This document shows, piece after piece, positions 41,054-43,168 of a stretch of 62,457 bases of DNA; position 1 is the first letter of the stretch; every line of letters begins with the position of its first letter. The stretch is taken from contig CACEHK010000003.1 of the NCBI GenBank assembly GCA_902559305.1, forward strand, positions 1 through 62,457. The letters run 5' to 3'. This DNA comes from an uncultured Pelagibacteraceae bacterium. Lineage in GTDB: Bacteria > Pseudomonadota > Alphaproteobacteria > Pelagibacterales > Pelagibacteraceae. The translations under genes and the position numbers were made by a program. The notes beneath the pieces are model-generated. The model searched no databases and was not told the origin of the DNA. It saw only the letters and a program-made list of their open reading frames with translations.

Positions 41054-41983
41054 ATGAAAATTTTAGGAATAGGAAATGCAATTGTAGATGTTATCTGTAA
41101 AGTTGATGACAATTTTATTACTCAAAACGGTTTAACTAAAAGCACTATGAAATTAATCTTTGATGAAAATGAATTTAAAAAATTATTATCTAACCTTAAG
41201 ATAGAAAAGACTGTTTCTGGTGGCTCAGTAGCAAATTCAATAGTTGGAATATCTCAACTAGGTAACAAAGTAGGATTCATAGGAAAAGTATCTGATGACG
41301 ATCTTGGAAGTAAATACGAAGAAGGATTAAAAATTGAAAATGTAGAATATTTTTATTCTAAAAAAAAAGAAGAGTTGCCTACTGGAACATGCTTAATTTT
41401 AGTAACACCAGATTCTGAGAGAACAATGTGTACATTTTTGGGTACAGCGGGAAAAATAAATGAAAATGATGTTAATTCTGAAGCAATAAAGAATAGTGAA
41501 ATAATATTTCTTGAAGGATATTTGTGGGACGAAGGTGAACCAAAAAAAGCATTTGATAAAGCAATAAGTAGCGCAAATAAGGTTGCAATGTCATTATCAG
41601 ATCAATTTTGTGTTGATAGACATAAATCTCATTTTTTAGATTTAGTTAAGAATAAATTAGATATAACCTTTGCTAATGAGCAGGAAATTATATCATTAAT
41701 AAACGCAAAAAATTTTGACGAAGTAATAAACTTTTCAAAACAACTAGGTAAATTAATTGTTGTTACTAGAGGTGAAAAGGGTGCAGTTGCGGTCAAGGGA
41801 GACGAAATTTTTGAATGTGATATTCAAAAAAATCTTAAGATAGTTGATTTAACAGGCGCTGGTGATTTATTTGCTGCTGGGTTTTTACATGGATATATAA
41901 ATAATTTATCAATTAAAGAAAGTTTAAAGAAAGGTACTGAAATGTCTTCAAAAGTTATTCAACAAATTGGAGCTAGATTATAA
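41054..41983 (+). CDS. PfkB-family carbohydrate/nucleoside kinase
   Basis: A 309-residue ribokinase-fold kinase. The N-terminal part has GIGNAIVDVICKVDD and VSGGSVANSIVGISQLGNKVGFIGKVSDDDLG; the C-terminal signature DLTGAGDLFAAGFLHG contains the GAGD anion hole and catalytic Asp. The long N-terminal stretch and TGTCLILVTPDSERTMCTFLGTA match alphaproteobacterial proteins annotated as adenosine kinase. The substrate cannot be assigned from sequence alone. It starts 2 bp after nth and converges with the ArfA-like gene, leaving 2 bp between stops. Confidence 0.85.
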   Translation: MKILGIGNAIVDVICKVDDNFITQNGLTKSTMKLIFDENEFKKLLSNLKIEKTVSGGSVANSIVGISQLGNKVGFIGKVSDDDLGSKYEEGLKIENVEYFYSKKKEELPTGTCLILVTPDSERTMCTFLGTAGKINENDVNSEAIKNSEIIFLEGYLWDEGEPKKAFDKAISSANKVAMSLSDQFCVDRHKSHFLDLVKNKLDITFANEQEIISLINAKNFDEVINFSKQLGKLIVVTRGEKGAVAVKGDEIFECDIQKNLKIVDLTGAGDLFAAGFLHGYINNLSIKESLKKGTEMSSKVIQQIGARL

Positions 41984-41985
41984 AT

Positions 41986-42093
41986 TTATTTTTTACGTCT
42001 TTTAAAACTACCTTTTCCTTTTTTGGGTCTAACTACTTTTGGTTTAAATTTTTTTGAAAACAAATCTTTTGCTATATAATTTCTTTTTTTCAT
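41986..42093 (-). CDS. ArfA-like ribosome-rescue micro-protein (35 aa)
   Basis: A complete 35-residue ORF (ATG at 42093, TAA at 41986) whose C-terminal half reads FKPKVVRPKKGKGSFKRRKK. ArfA proteins, which recruit RF2 to ribosomes stalled without a stop codon, have FRxRVxxxKKGKGSYxRK in the same place: the KKGKGS core, the upstream F-(R/K)-x-(R/K)-V and the following aromatic and Arg all match. E. coli ArfA continues with a hydrophobic tail that is removed from the active form; here the protein stops right after the motif. Its ATG overlaps the regulator's TGA (ATGA). Short length prevents a firm call; a generic ribosome-associated basic peptide is the alternative. Confidence 0.62.
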   Translation of the reverse strand: MKKRNYIAKDLFSKKFKPKVVRPKKGKGSFKRRKK

Positions 42094-42676: not shown

Positions 42677-43168
42677 ATGATAATTGAACTTAAAAATAAA
42701 GATACTTTAAATGTTGGAAATTTTAAACTTAAATGTTGTGTTGGAAAAAAAGGTATTTCAAAAAATAAGTTTGAGGGTGATTTAAAAACACCAAAAGGAA
42801 AATTTGGAATAGGAAATTTATATTGGAGAAGTGATAGAGTAAAAAAACCTCAAACTAAATTATTTTGTAAAAAAATTACCAGAAGTATGGCCTGGTGTAA
42901 CGACAGTAAGAGCAATTTATATAATAAACAAATAAGAATAAATAAAAGAATTGGTCATGAAAGGATTTTTAGGAAAGATTCTAAGTATGACTACTTTATA
43001 GTCATTAAATATAATTATGATAAAGTAAAAAAATATAAAGGCAGTGCAATTTTTATTCATTTAACAAAAAATTATAAACCTACAGCTGGTTGCATTGCTG
43101 TCACAAAAAAAGATTTTATAATTATTGCTAAAGTTTTAAAAAAAAATAGTAAAATTATTATAAATTAA
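42677..43168 (+). CDS. L,D-transpeptidase (YkuD) family protein
   Basis: A 163-residue protein with the YkuD catalytic signature IFIHLTKNYKPTAGCIAV (His...Gly-Cys nucleophile) near 122-139, and KTPKGKFGIGNLYWRSDRV upstream, typical of the family. No signal peptide is visible, as in short alphaproteobacterial homologues, so export is unclear. Expected activity is 3-3 crosslinking of peptidoglycan or attachment of proteins to it. Divergent from the orphan regulator by 14 bp, which may control it (inference). Its end overlaps yggS by 4 bp. Confidence 0.83.
   Translation: MIIELKNKDTLNVGNFKLKCCVGKKGISKNKFEGDLKTPKGKFGIGNLYWRSDRVKKPQTKLFCKKITRSMAWCNDSKSNLYNKQIRINKRIGHERIFRKDSKYDYFIVIKYNYDKVKKYKGSAIFIHLTKNYKPTAGCIAVTKKDFIIIAKVLKKNSKIIIN

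Follow-up and report, generated by a model that had tools for sequence, protein, structure and literature searches.

In this study, we asked whether a gene of 35 codons in an uncultured Pelagibacteraceae bacterium could encode an ArfA-type ribosome-rescue peptide, and how such a gene would work in a lineage for which we found ArfA recorded from phages only. The gene lies at 41986–42093 on the minus strand of the window, by which we mean the whole analysed stretch of 62,457 nucleotides. Few cells in the ocean are as abundant as SAR11 bacteria. Our literature search, which was thin on subscription journals and is therefore weak evidence, found reports of ArfA in SAR11 for phages only. In a 2024 survey of 15,259 genomes it has been reported that ArfA occurs in Gammaproteobacteria, some Betaproteobacteria and 10 species of the Bacillus subtilis group, and that nucleotide profiles detected arfA in none and arfB in 2,022 of 2,376 Alphaproteobacteria (PMC11633108).

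The product of the short gene in the list of open reading frames, MKKRNYIAKDLFSKKFKPKVVRPKKGKGSFKRRKK, is 35 amino acids long and carries KKGKGS at residues 24–29, with F-K-P-K-V before it and F-K-R after it (KKGKGSFKR). All parts of the pattern named in the original prediction, that is KKGKGS with a preceding F-K-x-K-V and a following aromatic-x-R, are thus present in the minus-strand frame. ArfA (PF03889) is the sole Pfam match of the peptide and a borderline one, scoring 25.6 bits against a cut-off of 25.5 (E 8.2e-6); an NCBIfam search with the peptide gave no match, and the GGQ of the release-factor domain of ArfB/YaeJ/ICT1 is absent from its 35 residues. A profile of 21 SAR11 sequences (A1), of which the peptide itself is one row, matches its own locus at E 3.5e-18. 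A search of the whole PDB with A1 gave, at E ≤ 1, six distinct sequences, every one of which is E. coli ArfA (E 1.3e-6 to 3.8e-6). The alignment is gap-free over 32 positions, peptide residue n corresponding to E. coli residue n+9. The peptide hence equals E. coli residues 10–44, followed directly by a TAA codon, and lacks the hydrophobic tail, as had been proposed. N14, L20, F25 (F16 of the peptide), KKGKGS, an aromatic residue at 39 and R41 are kept, while A18 is replaced by lysine. Judged by its sequence, the SAR11 gene is an ArfA by family with a different gene design. The features of the locus are collected in the table below.

Coordinates of the short arfA gene and its neighbours in the window
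Feature	Position	Strand	Basis
Short arfA, 35 codons, ATG start at 42093, TAA stop ending at 41986	41986..42093	-	ORF list; Pfam ArfA; profile A1
ATGA, arfA start overlapping upstream stop	42090..42093	-	sequence
Regulator gene, 190 aa, C-terminal OmpR/PhoB-type winged helix	42090..42662	-	Pfam Trans_reg_C 47.8 bits
pfkB-family kinase gene, convergent, end 2 nt from arfA stop	41054..41983	+	ORF list; Pfam PfkB 158.6 bits
L,D-transpeptidase-like (YkuD) gene, divergent, in conserved neighbourhood beside regulator	42677..43168	+	Pfam YkuD 54.2 bits

Homologues of the gene are widespread in the order. PF03889 matches 196 of 297 genomes (114 of them over the cut-off) and A1 matches 206, and A1 also finds the gene in 117 of the 150 genomes that are at least 90% complete; the reading of the peptide as a SAR11 ArfA-like rescue factor, for which profile matches in homologues and a motif conserved within SAR11 had been named among the touchstones, is supported on both counts. 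The distribution of A1 scores has two humps: 197 genomes, all of one family, match at E ≤ 5.7e-8, and nine form a weak hump at E 4.7e-5 to 8.1e-4, three from that same family and six, at E 1.1e-4 to 5.8e-4, from a second family of the order. No strong match was found among the genomes of this second family in the 297-genome search. For a closer look at conservation, 111 SAR11 copies (L001–L031 and L124–L203) were picked by best score or by PKKGKGS[FY], so that the motif itself is invariant through the choice of copies; beyond the motif, N14, L20 and R41 do not vary either, and the position of F25 holds Y or F throughout (111/111). For these copies the median dN/dS in the arfA frame is 0.14, or 0.23 when the motif columns are left out, and the two remaining frames of that strand give 1.1 and 1.3. 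arfA is under purifying selection. It could be argued that a frame this short and lysine-rich, with a borderline Pfam score, has arisen by chance in AT-rich DNA; however, it occupies one conserved locus in many genomes, its dN/dS of about 0.2 is confined to the arfA frame, and related peptides are found in GC-rich alphaproteobacteria. We regard a chance frame as having next to no probability, and conservation together with dN/dS rules it out.

Not every SAR11 genome carries the gene. At the pfkB locus of eight relatives chosen from the genomes without an A1 match, pfkB, the regulator gene and ykuD are all kept (8/8) without arfA between them, which implies that some lineages can dispense with arfA, as is conceivable for a backup. 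These lineages seem to manage with neither ArfA nor ArfB. The stop codons of the 111 copies, which are related and not independent, are TAA in 81, TAG in 26 and TGA in four, compared with 38 TAA, four TAG and 11 TGA in the 53 window frames of at least 150 aa; few SAR11 arfA stops are thus of the RF2-only and many of the RF1-only kind.

The position of the gene is conserved as well. In a set of 31 loci, consisting of the window gene and the 30 best-scoring PF03889 matches, arfA lies between pfkB and the regulator gene in 29, one of which (L025) has about 0.6 kb extra before pfkB; in the remaining two, from genus g2, it lies within a few kb of pfkB and directly 3' of a gene that looks photolyase-like by eye, again with an ATGA overlap. 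Among named genomes, at least 401 of 598 pattern-bearing stretches were confirmed. The best 80 of these come without exception from Pelagibacteraceae or Candidatus Pelagibacter, with both neighbours present in 77, a contig edge in two and pfkB missing in one. No receiver domain was recognised in the 190-aa regulator, and the NCBIfam response-regulator models cover its C-terminal part only, far under their cut-offs. An assignment was possible for 96 of the 111 copies (15 were left unassigned), and in 90 of these the start codon of arfA overlaps the stop of the gene upstream; the ATGA shared by the regulator stop and the arfA start suggests translational coupling. This overlap in most copies, together with two loci (L012 and L024) in which CTG is the only possible start codon before the conserved part, would also be expected if the frame served chiefly to extend the upstream regulator at its C-terminus, by coupling or by a frameshift, and not to encode a free peptide. 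Against this, 84 of the 111 copies have an in-frame ATG, the g2 copies follow a quite different gene with the same ATGA overlap, and arfA occurs in viral contigs without the regulator, and we therefore consider an extension very improbable.

In E. coli arfA is controlled by tmRNA through a non-stop mRNA, and it was of interest whether the SAR11 gene shares this. The original prediction of a normal stop codon and no hairpin within the gene held: the TAA codon is there, and the best 60-nt window of the gene has a z-score of about +0.6. As a positive control, the hairpin of E. coli K-12 arfA gave z -6.4 and -29.1 kcal/mol (60 shuffles per window, against 30 for the SAR11 copies). Over the 111 SAR11 copies the mean best-window z is -1.05, windows below -3 occur in six (L014, L026, L141, L143, L005 and L167), and no E. 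coli-like hairpin was found in any of them; a hidden hairpin can be dismissed, as nothing comparable to the control was seen. The hydrophobic C-terminal tail, likewise a trait of E. coli-type regulation, is absent from the short gene, which TAA ends. Hairpin, non-stop message and tail are traits of regulation and not of the sequence family. With an ordinary stop, no tail and no hairpin, SAR11 arfA should escape control by tmRNA through non-stop mRNA, and this type of regulation seems to be absent. In the simplest reading, the stop directly after the basic end would allow the active form of ArfA to be made directly, and translational coupling with the regulator gene would probably determine how much peptide is supplied. 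Constitutive expression, which had also been proposed, can only be inferred, because arfA is usually coupled to this upstream gene.

Whether tmRNA and ArfB accompany the gene, a question raised along with the original prediction, was answered in the host genome for the former and in relatives for the latter. The window's genome contains a tmRNA gene with the tag ANESYAIAA. SmpB, RF1 and RF2 were not found in its own assembly, which is 82.8% complete; a true loss of the three can be set aside, since SmpB together with exactly two release factors is present in each of 21 relatives with nearly complete genomes (21/21). To look for ArfB, we searched for a third protein with an RF-1 domain, and none was detected in 74 other genomes of the order: there are two such proteins in 44/44 other genomes of the same family and, in the second family, two in 22/30 and one in 8/30. 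As these eight show only one release factor, some of the gaps in that family are due to incompleteness. The same search found an ArfB-sized third protein (open frames of 142–193 aa) in four of seven non-SAR11 alphaproteobacteria with an ArfA match. The absence in the order is therefore not blindness of the method, and ArfA and ArfB are not always mutually exclusive. In all eight genomes that were read, the two release factors are an RF1 (PxT) and an RF2 (SPF), and they differ at two of three positions: at 198 the RF2 has V or I and the RF1 has V, at 217 the RF2 has F and the RF1 has A, and at 319 the RF2 has W and the RF1 has S or T (8/8 each). We take these three RF2 positions to matter for ArfA. 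The residues found there are general to RF2 and no proof of ArfA contact. The second family, with no ArfB-sized protein in 30/30 genomes and no strong ArfA match, may depend on trans-translation alone or on an unrecognised factor.

Taken together, we propose that the gene encodes a naturally short ArfA, predicted to serve as a backup to trans-translation in a lineage in which no ArfB was seen; on these sequence comparisons we would put the probability of this reading at roughly 0.8. The peptide would bind the ribosome and most likely recruit RF2 to ribosomes that have stalled, leading to peptide release. For E. coli ArfA it has been reported that RF2 is contacted by F25 and residues 27–30, that the C-terminus obstructs the mRNA channel, that the last 17–18 residues are dispensable and that ArfA shortened to 40 residues is inactive (PMC8012679). 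The SAR11 peptide ends at E. coli residue 44, four residues past this limit, and therefore has little length to spare. At A18, which is lysine in SAR11, an A18T variant is described as inactive and an A18C variant as active (PMC4245945). The Lys-His pair that is described as common to ArfA and BrfA in a further study (PMC6881298) is missing from the SAR11 peptide. An ArfA homologue could also occupy the decoding centre and the mRNA channel without RF2-dependent release, for example by parking or protecting idle ribosomes while cells grow slowly. Several observations would fit this idea: the peptide is shorter than E. coli ArfA at either end, A18 is replaced, the gene lacks the non-stop control by which E. 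coli arfA is recognised as a backup, and some relatives do without it. However, the RF2-contact part, which consists of F25 and the strand that follows, is conserved like the channel-binding part, with an aromatic residue in 111/111 copies; RF2 is present in the relatives; and no ArfB was seen. We consider binding without release to be unlikely for these reasons, and a short, RF2-recruiting ArfA remains the reading that we prefer.

The family extends beyond SAR11. Among 385 genomes drawn from the class, PF03889 matches ten, seven of them outside the SAR11 family; in three of these seven the protein ends no more than about 25 residues from the motif, and in the other four the open frame continues for at least 30 residues. 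A wider profile that contains E. coli ArfA (A2) matches 26 of the 385, 22 of them outside the family. Thirteen of the 15 further outside-family matches were read and 12 proved to lack GKG (for example VVKSKKTYSRK), while the match at L247 is partial. A third profile (A3), consisting of 12 GKG-less sequences, retrieved only E. coli ArfA from the PDB (6/6 sequences at E ≤ 10, E 2.1e-5 to 5e-5), a result that is not wholly independent, as the members of A3 had been collected with A2; compared with A1, A3 gave an hhalign probability of 96.4. Of ten GKG-less peptides tested singly, two pass the cut-off of 27 bits of Pfam DUF7230 (42.8 and 34.6 bits) and none that of ArfA. ArfA-like peptides with KK-x-Y-x-R in place of the GKG form were noted in alphaproteobacterial genomes at L243–L246, L248–L250, L252 and L254–L257, some of them falling in DUF7230, a family of which our literature search found no mention. 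From their sequences, the GKG-less peptides are possibly a second branch of ArfA. One SAR11 genome without canonical arfA (G003) encodes a GKG-less relative, MSKKRKKVKKKNPMAKLLSSPMLRNKIVKNKKKIYNRKKFKLGNE (L253, 1501–1608, minus strand), near a gene that appears photolyase-like by eye and a relative of which directly precedes arfA in genus g2. No such peptide was found in the photolyase-like stretch of four other arfA-less genomes, and a general replacement of arfA by this form is discarded on that account.

Relatives are also carried by viruses. At least 198 of 600 pattern-bearing stretches of viral contigs encode them, and among the best 80, which were kept, 57 are short (<90 aa) and 23 have the ArfA core inside a longer protein of 121–142 aa, except for one cut by the contig end (L061, L063, L065, L084, L088, L090–L092, L094, L095, L097, L099, L102, L104, L105, L107, L109–L111, L113, L114, L121 and L122). 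In one 138-aa protein that was scanned, the ArfA core scores 31 bits, over the Pfam cut-off, and the N- and C-terminal parts correspond to phrog_2423 and phrog_17747, whose annotations name no function. When ten window genes were compared with the best 80 viral loci, there was no match at E ≤ 1e-6; masking was on and the arfA query was blank too. In phage and plasmid collections, tblastn is weak for this peptide, as low-complexity masking hides its lysine-rich part. ArfA is already in print for Pelagibacter phage HTVC027P (gp30; PMC12753301) and Citromicrobium phage RXM (PMC8953757); gp30 scores 20.2 bits, under the Pfam ArfA cut-off, and in Brevundimonas phages ArfA is already annotated or in print. 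In Caulobacter phage Cr30, a stretch without an annotated gene (KF301602, 11148–11237; L278) gives an ArfA-like match that shares 57% identity with a phage ArfA across 30 residues (E 2e-4).

It is tempting, though we hold the idea to have slightly less than an even chance, to regard ArfA not as peculiar to Gamma- and Betaproteobacteria but as one branch of a wide superfamily of 35–50 aa rescue peptides in Alphaproteobacteria and their phages, which would include the SAR11 KKGKGS form and a GKG-less form covering at least part of DUF7230. If this were true, the ancestral gene would have been simple and stop-terminated, and the non-stop-mRNA control of E. coli arfA would have been added to it later. 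If the backup rescue factor of SAR11 is indeed a 35-residue ArfA with a normal stop, then the family would be wider than the 2024 survey shows (PMC11633108), the smallest rescue factor would be smaller than the E. coli form, and tmRNA control of ArfA through non-stop mRNA would not be general. It also raises a testable question, namely what minimum of ArfA is enough for the recruitment of RF2.

Several known systems invite comparison. BrfA of Bacillus subtilis and ArfT of Francisella are likewise small rescue peptides that recruit a release factor; however, their sequences are described as unrelated to ArfA (PMC6881298). DUF7230 (PF23876) and the GKG-less peptides share with ArfA the pattern N-P-x-A..L..(Y/F)R-x-(R/K)-V-V..K..Y-x-R-K, but lack the GKG of KKGKGS; scored one by one, the peptides give weak matches to either Pfam family. 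The phage forms (HTVC027P gp30, gp10 of RXM and those of Brevundimonas phages) resemble the SAR11 gene in their short core, ordinary stop and alphaproteobacterial hosts, and differ in being phage-borne with other gene neighbours. The closest comparison is with E. coli ArfA itself (YhdL, PF03889), with which the SAR11 peptide shares the sequence family over 32 gap-free positions, including N14, L20, F25, KKGKGS and R41, and even the arrangement of a DNA-binding regulator gene upstream and a convergent gene at the 3' end. However, the SAR11 gene has 35 codons against 72 in E. coli, with no counterpart of residues 1–9 or of anything past 44, its start overlaps the upstream gene, and it ends in an ordinary stop codon without a hairpin where E. 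coli arfA gives rise to a non-stop mRNA.
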